Below, one piece after another: positions 25,893-36,658 of a stretch of 37,353 nt of DNA. Position numbers and translations under genes: made by a program. The DNA is taken from positions 1-37,353 of the forward strand of contig VXRD01000098.1 in assembly GCA_009838845.1 (NCBI GenBank). The letters are read 5' to 3'. The DNA comes from Gemmatimonadota bacterium. GTDB lineage: Bacteria; Latescibacterota; UBA2968. Position 1 is the stretch's first letter. Every line of letters begins with the position of its first letter. The notes under the pieces were generated by a model. It searched no databases. It was not told the origin of the DNA and saw nothing but the letters and a program-made list of their open reading frames with translations.

Positions 25893-27227
25893 TCACAAAA
25901 TTTTAAGATGTTGATCCAATTCGTAACCCGTCACCTGCGCCCTGTAATTGGCCCATTCGATCTTCTTATTCGCAATAAACTTCTCAAAAATGTGATCCCC
26001 CAGGGCATTGCGAAGCAAATCGCTACCCTCGGCCAGATCAATAGCCTGTGACAGATCCAGAGGCAGAGTCTTAATACCCGCGTTCTCCCGCTCGGCACTG
26101 GACATCTCAGCCACATTTTTTTCCATAGGCGGCGGCACCTCATACTGTTTTTCAACACCCTCTAATCCCGCAGCCAACATAATTGCAAATGCCAGATAGG
26201 GATTGCAGGCCGGATCGGGCGACCGGTATTCGATGCGCGTTGTACTCTCCTTATCCAGAGAATAGGCCGGCACGCGCACCAGATCCGATCGGTTAACCAC
26301 CGACCACGTCGTGTACAAAGGCGCTTCATAACCCGGCACCAACCGCTTATAAGAATTGACCCACTGATTGGTCACCAGCGTTATCTCACACGCGTGTTTG
26401 AGCAAACCCGCGATAAAATACCGCGCCGTATCCGACAGATGGTATTCGCCTTCAGCGTCGTAAAACGCGTTAGCCTCTCCCTTAAACAGCGACATATTCG
26501 TATGCATACCATTGCCATTGACGCCAAAAATGGGTTTGGGCATAAACGTCGCCCAAACGCCGTGCTTCACGGCAATCTCCTTCACAACCAAACGGTAGGT
26601 CATCGCATTGTCCGCCATCGTCAGCGCATCGGTATAAAGCAAATCGATCTCGTGCTGGCTCGGCGCGTCCTCGTGATGGCTGGACGCCACCTCAATCCCC
26701 ATCTTCTCCAGCGTCAACACCGTATCCCGGCGCAAATCACTCGCCACATCCAGAGACGTCTGATCAAAATATCCACCCTCATCCAAACCCACGAGAGGAA
26801 CCTCGGGTTTTTCAAAATAGAAAAACTCCATCTCTGGACTGACGTAAAACGCAAAACCCATATCGCCTGCGCGTCTCAAATTTTTTTTCAGCACCCAGCG
26901 CGGATCTCCCCGATATGGATTTCCCCCCGGCTGGAGAATATCGCAAAACATACGCGCAACCGTACCGCCTTCTTGCGGACGAAAAGGCAGCACCTGAAAA
27001 GTATTGGGATCGGGCATCGCGATCATATCGCTCTCGTCAATGCGCGCAAAACCCTCTACGGACGACCCATCAAAACCGATCCCCTCTGTCAAAGCACCAT
27101 CGAGTTGCTCAACGGGAATGGCGACACTCTTTAGAAAACCCAAAATATCCGTAAACCAGAGCCTGACAAATTTGACCCCGTGTTCTGACGCGGCATTCAA
27201 CACGTATTCGCGGCTTCCTTCATTCAT
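25893..27227 (-). CDS. glnA: Glutamine synthetase, type I (GSI-alpha-like)
   Basis: Makes glutamine from glutamate, ammonia and ATP. At 444 residues it has the usual GSI length for the alpha subtype, with GIGFDGSSVEGFARIDESDM, the metal site region EMEFF, HHEDAPSQHEID, NGNGMHTNMSLF, the active-site loop SYKRLVPGYEAP, and the EYRSPDPACNPY motif. The segment ending MEKNVAEMSSAEREN lacks the tyrosine that GlnE adenylylates in beta-type enzymes, so it is probably controlled by feedback or transcription instead. The ATG at 27227 has AGG eight bases or so upstream. The small cysteine protein and heme genes follow closely. Confidence 0.97.
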   Translation of the reverse strand: MNEGSREYVLNAASEHGVKFVRLWFTDILGFLKSVAIPVEQLDGALTEGIGFDGSSVEGFARIDESDMIAMPDPNTFQVLPFRPQEGGTVARMFCDILQPGGNPYRGDPRWVLKKNLRRAGDMGFAFYVSPEMEFFYFEKPEVPLVGLDEGGYFDQTSLDVASDLRRDTVLTLEKMGIEVASSHHEDAPSQHEIDLLYTDALTMADNAMTYRLVVKEIAVKHGVWATFMPKPIFGVNGNGMHTNMSLFKGEANAFYDAEGEYHLSDTARYFIAGLLKHACEITLVTNQWVNSYKRLVPGYEAPLYTTWSVVNRSDLVRVPAYSLDKESTTRIEYRSPDPACNPYLAFAIMLAAGLEGVEKQYEVPPPMEKNVAEMSSAERENAGIKTLPLDLSQAIDLAEGSDLLRNALGDHIFEKFIANKKIEWANYRAQVTGYELDQHLKIL

Positions 27228-27502: not shown

Positions 27503-29284
27503 ATGAACCTTCGAACATTACTCACTATTCCCATTGTCGGACTGCTCGTGCTGGCCGGCGTCTTTTCCAATGCGCCTCCTGCCCTGGCAGATTGTCCACC
27601 CCCTCCCGGCGTGACGCCTCCTGCGGAACCGAGTGTGACGGCACAACAGGTGGAAGATGGCAGCGCCACCCTGAAGGAATTCGCGCTGGCCCTGAAAAAT
27701 CATCCGGAGTTTAGCCAAGTATCGGCGAGTTTGCATAGGCTATTGCACCTTGGATGTCTCTTCAGGCAGGAGGGGGGGCCGTACCGTTCCGGTTCCACCT
27801 ACATCGTGCAACTGACGCCCGACGGCAGGCTATCCGCTCACGCAAAGAACATGTCCTTGTCGGGCCGGCTACTCAACCCCTTGATATATGGAGCGATCCT
27901 TCAAGCATTGGGAATCAACCCAGCCGACCTCACCGACCGTGCTGCGGCCCTAGCCGCTTTCGCTGCCGCGGTAGCCGGGGATGGCGGCCCGTTCAATGTG
28001 CCCGATATCCCAGGGGCTTCCGGCTATGCCGCCGCAGTTATATCGCCCAGTTTCCAGACCCCGATCGTGCTGCTCGTGGGATTCGATCTCAACGAATCTC
28101 ACGTAGTTGAAGAAGAGATCGATTACGGCGACCCGACCATTACCGCCAGGGACGTGGTAGATCGAGAAACCCTGAAGGCCTTCGTCACGCAAGCGGGGGA
28201 GCGGTATCGCGAAATCTCACAGAGCGGCGATCCAGCCGCTTTCTATAAAGCCAGGATCGCACTTCGGGATGAGAACGGGCCCTGGAGACACGGTTCCGTG
28301 TACCTCTATGTCCTGGATCTTACCAGCAACATCATCACGTTTCACGGTGCGTTTCCGGACAGATTCGAGCTTCGACCTCTGATAGCCACTGTCCGAGACG
28401 TCGTTACTGGAGAGCTCATTCTGCCTCAGGTCATCGAAGCGGCAAAAAGTAACCCGGAAGGCGGCTTCGTGGAGTATTACTTCGACGATCCCACCGACGA
28501 CACAGACAGCGCCGACATCCCTAAGGTGGGATACGCACGCGAGTTCAAAGGTGAACTCATTTTAGGTGACCGCGTAGTCCCACTTCACTTCATCATTGGA
28601 TCGGGTTTTTATGGGCGCGCACCCGATGGTGTCTCGACTGATCCCCGTACAGAAGTGGAAGCCACAGTTATAGGCGACGCCGTCGAGGGATTGACCGTCG
28701 AGTTTGCGCGATCCATCGCTGGCCAACAGCCCGACTACGCCTATAGCGCCATCACAGATGCTGCTGGCTATTTATCCCTCACCATCTCCAGCGCGGACGG
28801 GGTAAGTGGTTACTATCTCGCCCGTGCCCGCAACGCCGATGGCGAGATCGTCGGTCAGTGGCACAGCATTCCCCTCAACCAGAATCAACGCCAGGTCCTG
28901 GAACTGACCCTAAGCGGCGATATGAAGGTCGTACGCGTCGAACCACTAACCGCATCCAAGCCCGTGGTCGTATCCGAGCCCGTGGCAGTATCCGAGACAG
29001 TACCAGAAGTTAGTGGTCTGGCACCCAACTTTCCCAACCCATTCAACAGCGCCACCCTGATTACCTACCACCTGTCCAGCCCCGGTCCGGTGCAACTGGT
29101 AATCTACAATGTGCTGGGTCAGCCCGTACGCACGCTGGTGGATCAATCCCAGGCCGCAGGCTCCTACCAGATACGGTGGGATGTTCTCGACCAGCGGGGC
29201 GTCTCGCTGTCAACGGGGATCTACATCGCACGTCTGAGCTATCCTAACGGGATACAGACGCAACGGTTGCTCTACCTCAAGTAG
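27503..29284 (+). CDS. Secreted double-Cache protein with C-terminal sorting domain, copy 1
   Basis: A 593-residue exported protein, first of four tandem paralogues. Order: signal peptide 1-29 (cleaved after ALA, before DC), a first Cache-like unit (about 45-190; CLFRQEGGPYRSGSTYIVQL near 84), a second Cache unit of the sCache_2 type (about 210-375; GPWRHGSVYLYVLD, GGFVEYYFDDP, HFIIGSGFYGRAP), a beta-sandwich domain (about 385-470), a proline/valine linker, and a FlgD/type IX-like sorting domain (PNPFNSATLITYHL...IYNVLGQPVRTLV...LLYLK). There are two cysteines (C31 and the GCLF cysteine). This copy lacks about 20 residues present in the others between the two units. GGGAGG lies nine bases before ATG. 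Cache domains bind small ligands; no signalling domain is attached, so it may be a binding protein or surface sensor. Confidence 0.85.
   Translation: MNLRTLLTIPIVGLLVLAGVFSNAPPALADCPPPPGVTPPAEPSVTAQQVEDGSATLKEFALALKNHPEFSQVSASLHRLLHLGCLFRQEGGPYRSGSTYIVQLTPDGRLSAHAKNMSLSGRLLNPLIYGAILQALGINPADLTDRAAALAAFAAAVAGDGGPFNVPDIPGASGYAAAVISPSFQTPIVLLVGFDLNESHVVEEEIDYGDPTITARDVVDRETLKAFVTQAGERYREISQSGDPAAFYKARIALRDENGPWRHGSVYLYVLDLTSNIITFHGAFPDRFELRPLIATVRDVVTGELILPQVIEAAKSNPEGGFVEYYFDDPTDDTDSADIPKVGYAREFKGELILGDRVVPLHFIIGSGFYGRAPDGVSTDPRTEVEATVIGDAVEGLTVEFARSIAGQQPDYAYSAITDAAGYLSLTISSADGVSGYYLARARNADGEIVGQWHSIPLNQNQRQVLELTLSGDMKVVRVEPLTASKPVVVSEPVAVSETVPEVSGLAPNFPNPFNSATLITYHLSSPGPVQLVIYNVLGQPVRTLVDQSQAAGSYQIRWDVLDQRGVSLSTGIYIARLSYPNGIQTQRLLYLK
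28922..29284 (+). repeat. 363-bp 3' constant module, copy 1
   Basis: From ATGAAGGTCGTACGCG to the stop codon, encoding the linker and sorting domain. The same 363 bp occurs at 30793-31155, 32658-33020 and 34732-35094, with the first 213 bp differing at only one base (28954) and the remainder by a handful of mostly silent changes. Confidence 0.9.
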
Positions 29285-29300
29285 TGCCAATTTTTTCGAG

Positions 29301-29306
29301 AAGGAG
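29301..29306 (+). promoter_or_regulatory. Ribosome site fixing the GTG start of Cache copy 2
   Basis: AAGGAG lies seven bases before the GTG at 29314. The same arrangement occurs at 31172-31177 before the GTG at 31185. It rules out the earlier in-frame GTG at 29284. Confidence 0.8.
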
Positions 29307-29313
29307 AACCATT

Positions 29314-31155
29314 GTGATAAAAGCTCGAACATCACTCACATACATGATTCCTGTTGTCGGACTGCTCGTGCTGGCTGGCGTCTTTTCCAACGCCCTGGCA
29401 GATTGTCCACTTCCTCCCGGCGTGACGCCTCCTGCGGAACCGCCTGTGACGGCGCAACAGGTGGAAAACGGCAGTGCTACCCTGAGGGACTTCGCGCTGG
29501 CCGCGAGAGATCGATATAGGACCCCGATAAGCACTCTGGAAGGAGCACTATACTTTCAATGTCTCATCAGGCAGGAGGGAAGCCCCTATCGTTCCGGCTC
29601 CACCTACCTCATTCAACTGACGCCCGACGGCAGGGTGTACGAACACGCGAAGTCCATGGCATTGTCGGGCAGACTACTCAACCCCTTGATTTATGCAGAG
29701 ATCCTTTCTGCGCTGGGAGTCGAACCAACTGTGCTGGCCAACCTGGCTTTTCCTGACCCTGATACCGCCGCCCAGGCTTTCGCCGCCGTCATGGCCACAT
29801 TACAGCAAGAACCGGATGCTCCATTTGATGCGACCACTCCTATACCAGGCTTGCGACCAGGTATCCCAGGTGCTTCCGGCCATGCTGCCATTTTCTTGCT
29901 GGAAAATTCCGGCTTCCCGATCGTGTTGCTCGCCGGATTCGATCTCAATGAATCTCACCTGGTTCCCATTAGCGATGAAGCAATCGATTACGGCGACCCG
30001 ACCGTTACCGCCAGGGACGTGGTAGATCGAGAAACCCTGAAGGCCTTCGTCACGGAAGCAGGCGAGTACTTTATCGCAATCCAGGAGAATGCCACCAGTC
30101 CATCCGATATCGCGAAAGCCAGGATCGCCGCGCGCGATCCGAACGGGCCCTGGAGACACGGCCCCGTGTACCTCTACGTCCTGGATCTTACCAGCAACAT
30201 CGTCCTGTTTCACGGCGCGTTTCCGGACAGATTCGAGTGGCGACCTCTGGTGGCGACCGTCCGAGATGTCGTGACCGGATGGCTCATTCTGCCGCAGGTC
30301 ATCGAAGCGGCGAAGAGTAGCCCGGAAGGCGGCTTCGTGGAGTATTACTTCGACGATCCCACCGACGACACAGACAGCGCCGACATTCCCAAGGTGGGAT
30401 ACGCACGCGAGTTCACTACTACAGTCGGGAGGACTGATGGAACCGCATTCACACTAAACCTCGTCATTGGATCGGGTTATTATGGGCGCGCCCCCGATGG
30501 TGTCTCGACTGAACCCCGTACAGAAGTGGAAGCCACAGTCATAGGCGACGCCGTCGAAGGATTGACCGTCGAGTTTGCGCGATCCATCGCCGGCCAGCCA
30601 GCCGACTACGCCCATAGCGCTGTCACAGATGCCAATGGCTCTTTGTCCCTGACCATCTCCAACCCAGATGGGGTCAGTGGTTACTATACAGCCCGCGCCC
30701 GCAACGCCGATGGCGAAACCGTCGGCCAATGGCACAGCATCCCCCTCAATCGCAATCAACGCCAGGTCCTGGAACTGACCCTGGGCGGCGGTATGAAGGT
30801 CGTACGCGTCGAACCACTAACCGCGTCCAAGCCCGTGGTCGTATCCGAGCCCGTGGCAGTATCCGAGACAGTACCAGAAGTTAGTGGTCTGGCACCCAAC
30901 TTTCCCAACCCATTCAACAGCGCCACCCTGATTACCTACCACCTGTCCAGCCCCGGTCCGGTGCAACTGGTAATCTACAATGTGCTGGGTCAGCCCGTAC
31001 GCACGCTGGTGGATCAGTCCCAGGCCGCAGGCTCCTACCAGATCCGGTGGGATGTTCTCGACCAGCGGGGCGTCTCGTTGTCAACGGGGATCTACATCGC
31101 ACGCCTGAGCTATCCTAACGGGGTGCAGACGCGACGGCTACTCTACCTCAAGTAG
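29314..31155 (+). CDS. Secreted double-Cache protein with C-terminal sorting domain, copy 2
   Basis: A 613-residue paralogue of the preceding gene, starting 29 bases after its stop and probably co-transcribed. The signal peptide (cleavage after ALA29) matches copy 1. The variable region carries CLIRQEGSPYRSGSTYLIQL and ARIAARDPNGPWRHGPVYLY. Compared with copy 1, it has an added segment (LAFPDPDTAAQAFAAVMATL near 155) before the second Cache unit. The last 120 residues are almost identical to those of the other copies. The ligand is unknown; differences among copies concentrate in the sensor part, suggesting different ligands or immune-like escape of phage or antibody recognition. That last idea is inference. 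Confidence 0.85.
   Translation: MIKARTSLTYMIPVVGLLVLAGVFSNALADCPLPPGVTPPAEPPVTAQQVENGSATLRDFALAARDRYRTPISTLEGALYFQCLIRQEGSPYRSGSTYLIQLTPDGRVYEHAKSMALSGRLLNPLIYAEILSALGVEPTVLANLAFPDPDTAAQAFAAVMATLQQEPDAPFDATTPIPGLRPGIPGASGHAAIFLLENSGFPIVLLAGFDLNESHLVPISDEAIDYGDPTVTARDVVDRETLKAFVTEAGEYFIAIQENATSPSDIAKARIAARDPNGPWRHGPVYLYVLDLTSNIVLFHGAFPDRFEWRPLVATVRDVVTGWLILPQVIEAAKSSPEGGFVEYYFDDPTDDTDSADIPKVGYAREFTTTVGRTDGTAFTLNLVIGSGYYGRAPDGVSTEPRTEVEATVIGDAVEGLTVEFARSIAGQPADYAHSAVTDANGSLSLTISNPDGVSGYYTARARNADGETVGQWHSIPLNRNQRQVLELTLGGGMKVVRVEPLTASKPVVVSEPVAVSETVPEVSGLAPNFPNPFNSATLITYHLSSPGPVQLVIYNVLGQPVRTLVDQSQAAGSYQIRWDVLDQRGVSLSTGIYIARLSYPNGVQTRRLLYLK
30793..31155 (+). repeat. 363-bp 3' constant module, copy 2
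   Basis: Same length and near-identical DNA as the modules ending copies 1, 3 and 4. It differs mainly in the last 30 bases (CAGACGCGACGGCTACTC). Confidence 0.9.
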
Positions 31156-31184
31156 CGCCAATTTTCCCGAGAAGGAGAATCATC

Positions 31185-33020
31185 GTGATAAAAACTCGAA
31201 CATTACTCACTATTCCTGTTGTCGGACTGCTCGTGCTGGCCGGCGTCTTTTCCAACGCCCTGGCAGATTGTCCACTTCCTCCCGGCGTGACGCCTCCTGC
31301 GGACCCGCGTGTGACGGCGCAACAGGTTGAAGACGGCAGCGCGAGCTTGGAGGAATTCGCGCTGGCCGCGAGAGATTTCTTTAGGAGCGAGTCCCGGGGA
31401 CAACCGACTCTTGAACGAGCGGCATACATCGGATGTCTCACAAGGCAGGACGATGGAATTTGGCGTTCCGGTTCTACGTACATCGTGAGCCTGACGCCCG
31501 ACGGAAGGGTGTTCATTCACGCGAAGGACATGTCATTGTCGGGCAGGCTGCTCAACCCCGTGATTTATGGAGCGATCCTTTCCGGGCTGGGCGTATCCAT
31601 GAGCGATCTGGCCAATCTGGTATCTCCTGATCCTGCTGTCGCCGCCCAGGCGTTCGGCGCCGTCATGAGCACATTGATTCAGGAACCGGACGGCGCATTC
31701 GATGCGACCACCCCTATTCCAGATCTGTCACCAGGCATACCAGGCGCCTCCGGCTATGCCGGCGTCTACTTCTCACTCGGTTTTCAGAGCCCGATCGTGG
31801 TGCTCGCTGGGTTCGATCTCAATGAAACTCACTTGACTGAAGAAGACATCGATTACGGCGACCCGTCCGTTACTGCCAAGGACGTGGTGGACCGCGAAAC
31901 CTTGAAGGCCTTCGTCACGCAAGCGATGATCTACTTTCGCGCAGCCTACGAAACCGGAGGTATAAGCGCTATCTCGAAGGTCAGGATAGCCTTTCGGGAT
32001 CCGAACGGGCCCTGGAGACATGGTTCCGTGTACCTCTACATCCTGGATCGTACCAGCAACACAATTCTACTTCACGGCGCGTTTCCGAATAGATTCGAGC
32101 TTCAACCTCTGGTTGCGACTGTCCGAGATGTCGTGAGCGGACATCTCGTTCTGCCGCAGGTCATCGAGGCGGCGGCCAGCAGCCCGGAAGGCGGCTTCGT
32201 GGAGTATTACTTCGATGACCCCACTGACGACACCGACAGAGCCGACATCCCCAAGGTGGGATACGCACGCGAGTTCACCGGTGAAATCCAAAGGCCAGAC
32301 GGAAGCGTAGTCCCAACTCACTACGTCATTGGATCGGGTTTTTATGGGCGCGCACCCGACGACGTTGTCTCAACCGATCATCGTACCCAAGTAGAGGCCA
32401 CAGTCTCAGGCGACGCCATTGAGGGCTTGACCGTCGCGTTTGCGCGATCCATCGCTGGCCAACAGCCCAACTACGCCTATAGCGCTGTCACCGATGCCAA
32501 TGGCTCTTTGTCCCTCACCATCTCCAGCGCAAATGGCGTGAGTGGGTACTATATGGCCCGTGCCCGCAACGCCGATGGCGAGACCGTCGGCCAGTGGCAC
32601 AGCATTCCCCTCAATCGCAATCAACGCCAGGTCCTGGAACTGACCCTGGGTGGCGGCATGAAGGTCGTACGCGTCGAACCACTAACCGCGTCCAAGCCCG
32701 TGGTCGTATCCGAGCCCGTGGCAGTATCCGAGACAGTACCAGAAGTTAGTGGTCTGGCACCCAACTTTCCCAACCCATTCAACAGCGCCACCCTGATTAC
32801 CTACCACCTGTCCAGCCCCGGTCCGGTGCAACTGGTAATCTACAATGTGCTGGGTCAGCCCGTACGCACGTTGGTGGATCAATCCCAGGCCGCAGGCTCC
32901 TACCAGATCCGGTGGGATGTCCTCGACCAGCGGGGCGTCTCGCTGTCAACGGGGATCTACATCGCACGCCTGAGCTATCCCGGCGGGGTACAGACGCAAC
33001 GGCTGCTCTACCTCAAGTAG
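31185..33020 (+). CDS. Secreted double-Cache protein with C-terminal sorting domain, copy 3
   Basis: A 611-residue paralogue, starting with GTG 29 bases after copy 2, with AAGGAG seven bases upstream. Its domain order is the same. Distinct residues include GCLTRQDDGIWRSGSTYIVS in the first unit and AYETGGISAISKVRIAFRDP before the second. One Cache residue set changes near DDTDRADIPKVGYAREF. The signal peptide reads TLLTIPVVGLLVLAGVFSN then ALADC. It ends the first transcription unit, since a terminator and a new promoter follow before copy 4. Confidence 0.85.
   Translation: MIKTRTLLTIPVVGLLVLAGVFSNALADCPLPPGVTPPADPRVTAQQVEDGSASLEEFALAARDFFRSESRGQPTLERAAYIGCLTRQDDGIWRSGSTYIVSLTPDGRVFIHAKDMSLSGRLLNPVIYGAILSGLGVSMSDLANLVSPDPAVAAQAFGAVMSTLIQEPDGAFDATTPIPDLSPGIPGASGYAGVYFSLGFQSPIVVLAGFDLNETHLTEEDIDYGDPSVTAKDVVDRETLKAFVTQAMIYFRAAYETGGISAISKVRIAFRDPNGPWRHGSVYLYILDRTSNTILLHGAFPNRFELQPLVATVRDVVSGHLVLPQVIEAAASSPEGGFVEYYFDDPTDDTDRADIPKVGYAREFTGEIQRPDGSVVPTHYVIGSGFYGRAPDDVVSTDHRTQVEATVSGDAIEGLTVAFARSIAGQQPNYAYSAVTDANGSLSLTISSANGVSGYYMARARNADGETVGQWHSIPLNRNQRQVLELTLGGGMKVVRVEPLTASKPVVVSEPVAVSETVPEVSGLAPNFPNPFNSATLITYHLSSPGPVQLVIYNVLGQPVRTLVDQSQAAGSYQIRWDVLDQRGVSLSTGIYIARLSYPGGVQTQRLLYLK
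32658..33020 (+). repeat. 363-bp 3' constant module, copy 3
   Basis: Near-identical to the other three. Distinct bases are TTG for CTG at the conserved ACGCTGGTGG and GTC for GTT in the following DVL codons. Confidence 0.9.
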
Positions 33021-33073
33021 CGCGCCGAACGGTTGGGTAAGACGCGCTATCCGCCCATCTCGCACACAAAGCC

Positions 33074-33116
33074 AACCAAACCCTCGCCCGGAAGAACCAG
33101 GCGAGGGTTTGGTTTT
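33074..33116 (+). terminator. Terminator after Cache copy 3
   Basis: A perfect 15-bp stem, AACCAAACCCTCGCC (33074-33088) with GGCGAGGGTTTGGTT (33100-33114), and an 11-base loop. The T-run is short (TTTT), but the stem is very stable. It would stop most read-through into copy 4. Confidence 0.75.
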
Positions 33117-33141
33117 AGTGTAATTGTAGATTATGCAGAAC

Positions 33142-33170
33142 TTGACCTTTTTTTGTAACAGCAATATATT
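33142..33170 (+). promoter_or_regulatory. Promoter of Cache copy 4
   Basis: TTGACC at 33142-33147 and TATATT at 33165-33170 are 17 bases apart, a strong match to a housekeeping sigma promoter. Transcription would begin near 33177, leaving a leader of about 73 bases. Confidence 0.7.
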
Positions 33171-33175
33171 CAAAG

Positions 33176-33213
33176 GCGATATATAAACCAAAAGTCTATA
33201 TATCGCTTTTTTT
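33176..33213 (+). other. Hairpin with T-run at the 5' end of the copy-4 leader
   Basis: GCGATATATA (33176-33185) pairs with TATATATCGC (33197-33206), followed by seven T. It resembles a terminator, but it begins at the predicted transcription start, where an RNA too short to be released would form it. It may stabilise the 5' end, or the promoter may lie elsewhere. Confidence 0.6.
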
Positions 33214-33249
33214 GAAAGTCTTAAATCTAACTCAAAAGGGAGGACCATC

Positions 33250-35094
33250 GTGATGAAAACTCGAACATTACCCACATACCTGATTCCCATTGTCGGACTG
33301 CTCGTGCTGGCTGGCGTCTTTTCCAATGCGCCTCCTGCCCTGGCAGATTGTCCACCCCCTCCCGGCGTGACATCCCCTGTGGCACCGCGTGTGACAGCGC
33401 AACAGGTGGAAGACGGCAGCGCTACCCTGAAGGACTTCGCGCTGGCCTCGAGAGATCAATTCGTTATTCAGCTTCAGACGGCTGAGAATCTGGGACAAGT
33501 GGTATACTATGGATGTCTCTTCCGGCAAGAGGGGAGCTATTGGTATTCCGGTTCCACCTACCTCGTGGTTCTGAAGGCCGATGGCAGTATTTTGATTCAC
33601 GCGAAGAACATGGCATTGTCGAGCAGGCGACTCAACCCCCTTATTTATGCAGAGATCCTTTCTTCGCTGGGAGTACCCTCAACCGTTCTGGCCAACCTGG
33701 CATCTCCCGATTCTGAAATTGCCGCCCAGGCTAATGCCGAAGTGGTTAATATATTGTCGCAAGAACCGGATGGCGCATTCGATGCGACCACCCCTGTATC
33801 AGGCCTGCGACCAGGCATACCGGATGCCTCCGGCTATGCCGCCGCATATTGGTCGGACTTTTTTAGAGGCCCGCTTGTGATGATAGCCGGTTTCGAGCTC
33901 AATGAAACTCACGTAGTTGAAGAAGAGATCGATCACATTACCCCGACCGTTACCGCCAGGGACGTGGTAGATCGAGAAACCCTGAAAACCTTCGTCACGG
34001 AAGCAGGGGAGTACTGTCTCGAACTTCGGAAAACCGGCAATTTCCCCGGTGGGATCGCCAGGAGCGCACTTCGGGATCCGGACGGGCCCTGGAGACACGG
34101 TTCCGTGTACCTCTATGTACTGGATACTACCAGCAACGTAATCCAAATACACGCTGCATTTCCGAACAGATACGAGCTTCGACCTCTGATAGCGACCGTC
34201 CGAGACGCGGTCACCGGAAAACTCATACTACCGCAGGTCATCGAAGCGGCGAAAAGTGATCCGGAAGGCGGCTTCGTGGAGTATTACTTTGACGATCCCA
34301 ATGACGACACCGACAGCGCCGATATCCCCAAGGTGGGATACGCACGCGAGTTCAAAACGAAAACCGAGATAGGTGGAAGGGTAATCCCGTACAACTTCAT
34401 CATTGGGTCGGGCTTTTATGGGCGTGCACCCGAGGTTGTCGTCCCAACTGAACCTCATACGGTAGTGGACGCCACAGTTATGGGCGACGCCGTCGAGGGA
34501 TTGACCGTCGAGTTTGCTCGATCCATCGCCGGCAGCCAGCCCGACTACGCCTATAACGCCGTCACCGATGCCAATGGCTCTTTGTCCCTCACCATCTCCA
34601 GCGCGGACGGGGTAAGTGGTTACTATCTCGCACGCGCCCGCAACGCCGATGGCGAAACCGTTGGCCAGTGGCACTCCATTCCCCTTAACCAGAACCAACG
34701 CCAGATCCTGGAACTGACCCTAAGCGGCGGCATGAAGGTCGTACGCGTCGAACCACTAACCGCGTCCAAGCCCGTGGTCGTATCCGAGCCCGTGGCAGTA
34801 TCCGAGACAGTACCAGAAGTTAGTGGTCTGGCACCCAACTTTCCCAACCCATTCAACAGCGCCACCCTGATTACCTACCACCTGTCCAGCCCCGGTCCGG
34901 TGCAACTGGTAATCTACAATGTGCTGGGTCAGCCCGTACGCACGCTGGTGGATCAATCCCAGGCCGCAGGCTCCTACCAGATACGGTGGGATGTTCTCGA
35001 CCAGCGGGGCGTCTCGCTGTCAACGGGGATCTACATCGCACGTCTGAGCTATCCCGGCGGGGTGCAAACGCAACGGCTGCTCTACCTCAAGTAG
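33250..35094 (+). CDS. Secreted double-Cache protein with C-terminal sorting domain, copy 4
   Basis: A 614-residue paralogue with its own promoter, starting at GTG 33250 or ATG 33253 (GGGAGG just upstream). Domain order matches the others. The variable part is the most divergent: FVIQLQTAENLGQVVYYGCLF, RQEGSYWYSGSTYLVVLKAD, and EYCLELRKTGNFPGGIARS. It has an extra cysteine (EYCLEL) not seen in the other copies. The second Cache unit keeps GPWRHGSVYLYVLD and GGFVEYYFDDP. The signal ends APPALADC as in copy 1. A strong terminator follows at 35113. Confidence 0.85.
   Translation: MMKTRTLPTYLIPIVGLLVLAGVFSNAPPALADCPPPPGVTSPVAPRVTAQQVEDGSATLKDFALASRDQFVIQLQTAENLGQVVYYGCLFRQEGSYWYSGSTYLVVLKADGSILIHAKNMALSSRRLNPLIYAEILSSLGVPSTVLANLASPDSEIAAQANAEVVNILSQEPDGAFDATTPVSGLRPGIPDASGYAAAYWSDFFRGPLVMIAGFELNETHVVEEEIDHITPTVTARDVVDRETLKTFVTEAGEYCLELRKTGNFPGGIARSALRDPDGPWRHGSVYLYVLDTTSNVIQIHAAFPNRYELRPLIATVRDAVTGKLILPQVIEAAKSDPEGGFVEYYFDDPNDDTDSADIPKVGYAREFKTKTEIGGRVIPYNFIIGSGFYGRAPEVVVPTEPHTVVDATVMGDAVEGLTVEFARSIAGSQPDYAYNAVTDANGSLSLTISSADGVSGYYLARARNADGETVGQWHSIPLNQNQRQILELTLSGGMKVVRVEPLTASKPVVVSEPVAVSETVPEVSGLAPNFPNPFNSATLITYHLSSPGPVQLVIYNVLGQPVRTLVDQSQAAGSYQIRWDVLDQRGVSLSTGIYIARLSYPGGVQTQRLLYLK
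34732..35094 (+). repeat. 363-bp 3' constant module, copy 4
   Basis: Near-identical to the other three, sharing CCCGGCGGGGT near the end with copy 3 but GCACGTCTGAGC with copy 1. This mixed pattern suggests gene conversion. Confidence 0.9.
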
Positions 35095-35806: not shown

Positions 35807-36658
35807 TCAGGTCACTTCCAGCAGTGGCTCAAGCCGCGAGCGACGACGCGGATGGCGCAATCTGCGCAGTGCTTTCTCCTTAATTTGCCGCACGCGCTCT
35901 CGGGTCAAATTGAACCGAACGCCGATCTCTTCAAGCGTAAGCGGCTCTTCACCGCCCAGACCAAAATACAGGCGTAAAACCTCGGTCTCCCGGTCATCCA
36001 GAGACGTGAGCACATCTTTTACCTGCTCGCGCACTGAATCCTCTACAACTTCCTCATCCGGTGCCTTTTGCGTCTTATCGGGCAACACATGCAGCAAACT
36101 GTGGTCATCCTCCTCGCGGAAAGACGCATCCAGAGACCAGACATCGCGCGCGCGCATCAGCGTATCCTGAACCATCTCCACCGACACACCGAGTTCTTTT
36201 GCCACAGTTTCGGGTTCGGGTTCGGTCTCGCTTGACTGCCTCAGTTCGCGCGACACCTTTGAAATATTGTGCAACAAATCAATGCGATTAATGGGCAACC
36301 GCACAACCCGTGAATCCTGTGCCAGACTCTGGTGAATCGCCTGGCGGATCCACCATACCGCATAAGAAATAAACTTAAAGCCCCGCGTGCCATCAAAGCG
36401 CTCGGCAGCCGTCATCAGGCCCATATTGCCCGCGCTGATCAAATCGGCCAGAGGCACCCCGTGATTTTGATATTCGCGCGCCACACTCACCACAAAACGG
36501 AGATTGGCCGCAACCAGTTTATCTCTGGATCTCTGACAACCTTTGTGGATCTTCTTTGCCAGTTCAATTTCTTCTGCACTCGAAAGGGGTTCAGACGAGG
36601 CAATGTCTCGCAGATACAAATCCAGAGACTCACTATCTTGTATCATAATTCCAGGCAA
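35807..36658 (-). CDS. rpoD: RpoD/SigA-type RNA polymerase sigma factor
   Basis: A 283-residue sigma-70 of primary type but short, without region 1.1. Region 1.2 (DSESLDLYLRDIASSEPLSS), region 2 (AANLRFVVSVAREYQNHGVPLADLISAGNMGLMTAAERFD, then AVWWIRQAIHQSLAQDSRVVRLP), region 3 and region 4 (LTLEEIGVRFNLTRERVRQIKEKALRRLRHP) are complete. It therefore recognises -35/-10 promoters like those seen here. The TTG start at 36658 is chosen because AGGAGG (36665-36670) lies six bases upstream; the ATG at 36646 would be 18 bases away. The length is similar to Bacteroidetes primary sigma factors; a second sigma may exist elsewhere. The PTS IIA gene ends 33 bases upstream, so they are co-transcribed. Confidence 0.93.
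   Translation of the reverse strand: MPGIMIQDSESLDLYLRDIASSEPLSSAEEIELAKKIHKGCQRSRDKLVAANLRFVVSVAREYQNHGVPLADLISAGNMGLMTAAERFDGTRGFKFISYAVWWIRQAIHQSLAQDSRVVRLPINRIDLLHNISKVSRELRQSSETEPEPETVAKELGVSVEMVQDTLMRARDVWSLDASFREEDDHSLLHVLPDKTQKAPDEEVVEDSVREQVKDVLTSLDDRETEVLRLYFGLGGEEPLTLEEIGVRFNLTRERVRQIKEKALRRLRHPRRRSRLEPLLEVT

Follow-up and report, generated by a model that had tools for sequence, protein, structure and literature searches.

What do Cache domains, the most abundant extracellular sensor domains of prokaryotes (PMC4822843), do in proteins that carry no signalling output? The question is raised by a window of 37,353 nucleotides from a Gemmatimonadota bacterium (Latescibacterota, UBA2968 in GTDB; assembly GCA_009838845.1, contig VXRD01000098.1), in which four plus-strand genes stand in tandem, with glnA on one side and a sigma-70 gene on the other. 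The four encoded proteins follow a common layout, consisting of signal peptide, two Cache units, β-sandwich, linker, and type IX sorting tail with the C-terminus LLYLK (4/4 copies). Compared to copy 1, copies 2–4 show 77–79% identity. A reading of the sequence alone had described this layout, and the open reading frames (ORFs), family matches, and structural model bear it out. Its view of the locus as a tandem array also stands, but it overlooked that the heads are exchanged and that related heads occur in other phyla with other tails: the array is a mosaic, in which homogenised ends carry heads of independent descent, and not a set of simple duplicates. As a whole, we consider it reasonably probable that these are exported surface ligand-binding proteins with recombining cassette heads, with carboxylate capture as their likely job.

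Fold and probable export of the array proteins

Homology and a predicted model show the head of the array proteins to be two sCache_2 units in tandem. By themselves, the Pfam matches are weak, as dCache_2 matches unit 2 only, with 30.9 bits in copy 4 and 16.9–24.5 bits in copies 1–3 (cut-off 26.5). A paralogue from the same genome (C126, 531 amino acids, same layout, 39% identity to copy 4) contains two strong sCache_2 units (90.6 bits), and a family profile search matches the sCache_2 structures 2QHK, 4K08, and 4EXO, which are handled as single-Cache structures (PMC4822843, PMC5062169). The AlphaFold2 (AF2) model of the head has a predicted local distance difference test score (pLDDT) of 89.9 and a predicted template modelling score (pTM) of 0.86, and its best Foldseek matches in the PDB are 2QHK and 4EXO (TM-score on target 0.67–0.68, probability 1.00). 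The fold search was performed with the head-only model, the full-length search being dominated by β-sandwich matches. In the predicted model, helices 60–77 and 242–261 are each followed by strands. Because each Cache unit thus has its own long helix, the head agrees with the view of dCache_2 as an sCache_2 duplication (PMC4822843), and the Cache fold proposed from the sequence is supported by paralogue, profile matches, and model. Each copy also features two cysteines at equivalent sites (residues 34 and 89 in copy 4), which perhaps form a disulfide.

The tails match NCBIfam TIGR04183 with 44.0–45.1 bits (cut-off 23) and exceed the cut-off of FlgD_ig; their Pfam Por_Secre_tail score falls slightly under its cut-off. 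A single N-terminal hydrophobic segment is present in each copy (Kyte–Doolittle maximum 2.0–2.1). A second membrane helix is not credible, since the mature parts peak at 1.3–1.7, over a buried strand in copies 1–3. The helix and cytoplasmic output that follow the domain in a transmembrane sensor are missing as well, the C-terminus being made up of sandwich and sorting tail, as had been claimed from the sequence. The genome encodes SprA (618.5 bits with neighbours; cut-off 200) and 23 members of the PorV family over the cut-off. Given the sorting-tail family and these machinery genes, export of the array proteins by the type IX secretion system (T9SS) is likely. They would hence belong with the T9SS type A cargo (TIGR04183), from which they differ in that tandem-Cache cargo was not found described in the literature searched. 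The 23 PorV-family loci, L167–L174 among them, represent a large expansion in this genome (G000).

Could the array proteins be detached sensors, which load a ligand outside the cell and deliver it to a distinct transmembrane receptor, like periplasmic binding proteins with some chemoreceptors? Such a sensor array, possibly paired with a receptor, had been suggested by the sequence-only reading, and the Cache domains of known proteins are overwhelmingly sensor inputs (PMC4822843). The genome, which is 97.8% complete, contains neither MCPsignal nor dCache_1 (0 each, controls positive; other receptor classes and other histidine kinases were not searched), and all sCache_2 domains found in it sit in output-less, seemingly exported proteins. 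No adjacent uptake transporter or conserved partner gene was found, and no neighbouring gene is kept outside the genus. An extracellular, tail-anchored binder would, moreover, hardly reach an inner-membrane receptor. As the genome lacks a chemoreceptor signalling domain and the locus a conserved partner gene, a sensing role is not supported, and we regard detached sensors as improbable. The free or surface-anchored ligand-binding proteins named in the same reading are consistent with the missing output domain and with the type IX machinery.

As output-less exported binders, the array proteins resemble extracytoplasmic solute-binding proteins (Peripla_BP_6 and others), some of which share the array β-sandwich in this genome. 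They differ from them in that their head is of the Cache type and not two-lobed, and in having no adjoining transporter. The sandwich (motif SIAGQ.PDY) is also found N-terminally in lipoprotein-like proteins (CGGERVTQSQ), where it precedes Peripla_BP_6, one or several sCache units, or other modules (L032, 8133–9152 and 11098–12813, minus strand; L018, L019, L021, L024, L025, and L029), and is a common scaffold for binding proteins in the genome. At L024 (952–2910), the same sandwich precedes a fusion of Peripla_BP_6 with a Cu/Zn superoxide dismutase domain. Two further output-less exported proteins apparently contain four sCache units in a row, of which C86 (L165) has a signal peptide and C170 (L162) a lipoprotein-like start and the sandwich.

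Independent inheritance of heads and tails

The mosaic is seen at silent sites. Among the four copies, synonymous divergence (dS) amounts to 0.45–0.69 in Cache 1, 0.27–0.54 in Cache 2, and 0.25–0.45 in the sandwich, compared to 0–0.04 in the linker, 0.05–0.11 in the tail, and 0.08–0.19 in the signal peptide. With a nonsynonymous divergence (dN) of 0–0.019, the four tails are near-identical, silent sites included, while the Cache units have a dN/dS of about 0.4–0.6. The heads fall in four different clades, their monophyly being rejected by the approximately unbiased test (p-AU 3e-70), and the tails group in a single clade (99/97). For proteins from multi-copy genomes, the most similar head is found within the own genome in 1/32 cases and the most similar tail in 17/32, ties included.

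The tandem layout at a single locus, conserved in the genus next to glnA and the sigma-70 gene, would fit plain duplication without exchange, after which the heads diverged and the tails were held under strong protein-level constraint. We rejected this explanation, to which we assign hardly any probability, on the silent-site likeness of the tails and the conflict between head and tail trees; heads more than 90% identical in other families with different tails also speak against it.

Exchange is seen directly in copy 1, the head of which matches those of two genomes from another family of the class (G045 and G040) at 93–99% of nucleotides over most of its length. After residue 400, the identity to G045 drops to 63–77%, as far as the G045 gene reaches, and GroEL of the copy 1 genome is 78% identical to that of G045/G040 at the amino acid level. 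Since a fast-evolving head is more alike than GroEL and is joined in the same ORF to a divergent tail, transfer and recombination have taken place, beyond what misbinning can produce. Contamination as the source of the common heads is unlikely for the same reason, namely that head and tail of one ORF diverge differently, and is further countered by the G045 contig, on which that genome's own divergent GroEL adjoins array-type genes. We postulate that the conserved stretches of DNA over the signal peptide and over the sandwich/tail end allow new heads to be crossed into resident export frames. By such head swapping, one genome could gather several heads behind identical tails.

The coordinates of the array and its flanking genes are collected in Table 1. 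For copy 2, the GTG at 29314, preceded by the ribosome-binding site AAGGAG, is a better start than 29284.

Table 1 Features of the array locus, with positions in the window.
Feature	Position	Strand	Remarks
Copy 1 gene	27503..29284	+	593 amino acids; ORF; signal peptide, two Cache units, β-sandwich, T9SS tail; family matches
Copy 2 gene	29314..31155	+	613 amino acids; ORF open from 29284; start GTG 29314
Copy 3 gene	31185..33020	+	611 amino acids; ORF
Copy 4 gene	33250..35094	+	614 amino acids; ORF; modelled by AF2
Copy 1 tandem-Cache head	27626..28627	+	93–99% nucleotide match over most of head in other-family G045, G040
Copy 2 tandem-Cache head	29437..30498	+	Closest head in G017, another family, 81% (amino acids)
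Copy 3 tandem-Cache head	31302..32360	+	Same-genus G003 99% (amino acids); G003 copy vs other-family G045 92% (amino acids)
Copy 4 tandem-Cache head	33385..34434	+	Clade sister to Acidobacteriota heads (98/92)
Copy 4 Cache unit 2 predicted carboxylate pocket, Y287 to K361	34108..34332	+	PscD equivalents (PMC5062169)
Copy 4 β-sandwich	34447..34749	+	Weak Big_1; module recurs in lipoprotein-like binding proteins of same genome
Copy 1 T9SS sorting tail	29030..29266	+	TIGR04183
Copy 2 T9SS sorting tail	30901..31137	+	TIGR04183
Copy 3 T9SS sorting tail	32766..32999	+	TIGR04183
Copy 4 T9SS sorting tail	34840..35073	+	TIGR04183
glnA	25893-27227	-	One flank of array
Sigma-70 gene	35807-36658	-	Other flank of array

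Relatives of the head in other genomes and phyla

Within Latescibacterota, close heads occur in 19/64 genomes and 5/24 genera. Some copies in relatives are broken by in-frame stops, with one TAG in G004 (C73) and one TAA in G018 (C46). A scan of GTDB species genomes further recovered the head in records named Latescibacterota, Gemmatimonadota, Acidobacteriota, Pseudomonadota, Myxococcota (titled Deltaproteobacteria), Binatota, and Nitrospirota, the DNA identity between heads of different phyla reaching at best 77–80% over about 1 kb. In six tested relatives from Pseudomonadota, Myxococcota, Gemmatimonadota, and one unassigned bin, the head is followed by an autotransporter barrel (PF03797, E 6e-13 to 1e-6) and none of them has a T9SS tail; a custom barrel profile adds further relatives of the autotransporter type. 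These proteins share with classical autotransporters the C-terminal barrel, the last residue of which is W or F in the complete cases. Their passenger, in contrast, is not a β-helix or protease but one, two, or three tandem-Cache heads (three head units in L083, two in L090), of which we found no description in the literature searched.

The Acidobacteriota records carry other C-termini without a Pfam match. Two such C-terminal types are seen behind heads from Acidobacteriota and an Aminicenantes bin (L078, L079, L081, L082, and L092). Tail-less Cache proteins of relatives (L098, L100, L102, and L103) end in a common motif, SWGQLKS.F, possibly another sorting signal. Close relatives thus display T9SS tails, autotransporter barrels, other C-terminal domains, or no tail, and at least 14 changes are needed to place these types on the head tree. 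None of the close relatives recovered carries a signalling domain.

Roughly half of the head-bearing records have bin prefixes (RHO, COS, IRC, and APA) that match sponge host names in PMC8163846. On these prefixes, not on record metadata, rests the link to sponges, in which many of the head-bearing bacteria probably reside. In sponge Thaumarchaeota, Cache Pfams are enriched or specific, and host recognition has been proposed as their role (PMC7848895). A search of viral contigs gave no relative and no phage vehicle; plasmid and phage collections were not searched.

The predicted ligand pocket and the possible function of the array

In PscD, a sensor of acetate and propionate, Tyr90, His103, Tyr143, and Lys156 hydrogen-bond the carboxylate (PMC5062169). 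The aligned residues of unit 2 (Y287, H301, Y345, and K361, copy 4 numbering) are each invariant in 62/62 sequences. Among the flanking aromatics, Y289 is present in 52/62 (the rest mostly F) and F347 in 56/62 (the rest Y). At the position of PscD His103, a study of gut receptors associates His with pyruvate and Leu with lactate (PMC12415202), and unit 2 of the array family always has His there. The complete pocket and this histidine together suggest that unit 2 probably binds acetate- or pyruvate-like (C2/C3) acids. Unit 1, the more variable and faster evolving of the two, keeps the Tyr and the His (H117), while its lysine site is occupied by alanine (A193) in 53 sequences and by Lys only in eight canonical paralogues; it probably binds a different, copy-specific ligand. 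Taken together, the array shares with sCache_2/dCache_2 proteins (Pfam PF17200/PF08269; PscD, 4K08, 4EXO) the fold, in which a PAS-like sheet follows a long helix, and, for unit 2, the full set of four carboxylate-binding residues. It differs from them in being exported without transmembrane helix or output, in the missing lysine of unit 1, in heads exchanged as cassettes, and in Pfam scores mostly under the cut-off.

In the account we favour, the Sec signal peptide would bring the array protein to the periplasm, from where the type IX tail, judging by its family and the machinery, would move it across the outer membrane. There, unit 2 with its complete C2/C3-carboxylate pocket would bind acetate- or pyruvate-like acids, while unit 1, without the carboxylate lysine, may set the ligand specific to each copy. 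Across phyla, the head is joined to an autotransporter barrel or another C-terminus, and would reach the surface by way of the secretion tail that its host employs. The least certain step is the job itself, which would be to catch small acids and related solutes at the surface, and not to signal. We rank this function first, with a slight lean in its favour.

Second in rank, and unlikely in our estimate, is a recognition role facing host or phage, in which sponge contact, or escape from phages or immunity, drives the head variation and small-molecule binding is secondary. The apparent surface placement through several secretion routes, the fast change of the heads at the dN/dS given above, the patchy occurrence in the phylum, and the proposal for sponge Thaumarchaeota (PMC7848895) are in line with such a role. 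The four invariant pocket residues, however, speak for a small ligand that has been kept, and dN/dS stays below 1. The heads might also be degenerate sensor domains of chemoreceptors, drifting without function after the loss of their output, as the broken copies in G004 and G018 could suggest. With a dN/dS well below 1, an invariant pocket, and repeated fusion to export tails, we hold this to be very improbable.

Several points weigh against surface capture by exchanged heads. No uptake gene adjoins the array, so that nutritional capture is a deduction of ours, and the ligand is a predicted one. Passage through the T9SS is deduced from tail and machinery; SprA and PorV-type genes are present, but the PorU-like C25 protein (1898 amino acids) scores 244 bits, under the PorU cut-off of 420. 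The Foldseek E-values of the head model are modest (1.5e-3). Transfer across phyla is drawn from metagenome-assembled genomes, and at least one record, L099 ('Nitrospira'), which shares its metagenome with its nearest neighbour L097, may have been placed in the wrong bin. General misbinning is countered by the length of some contigs (344 kb for L083, 410 kb for L090) and by repeats in independent bins.

On a wider scale, tandem-Cache heads may be horizontally exchanged surface modules common to a multi-phylum symbiont community, probably that of sponges, in which homologous recombination swaps the heads and lineage sets the tail; we see the chances of this as evenly balanced. If true, surface small-molecule recognition would be a trait of the community, spreading regardless of secretion system and phylum. 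Work on Cache domains has dealt almost exclusively with inputs of membrane receptors; in the array they appear exported, without output, and displayed by unrelated secretion routes. The predicted ligands of unit 2, C2/C3 carboxylates, are precise enough to be checked by a binding assay, and a binding head that moves between families and phyla would provide a direct test of what selects for ligand binding at the surface where symbionts live in dense communities.

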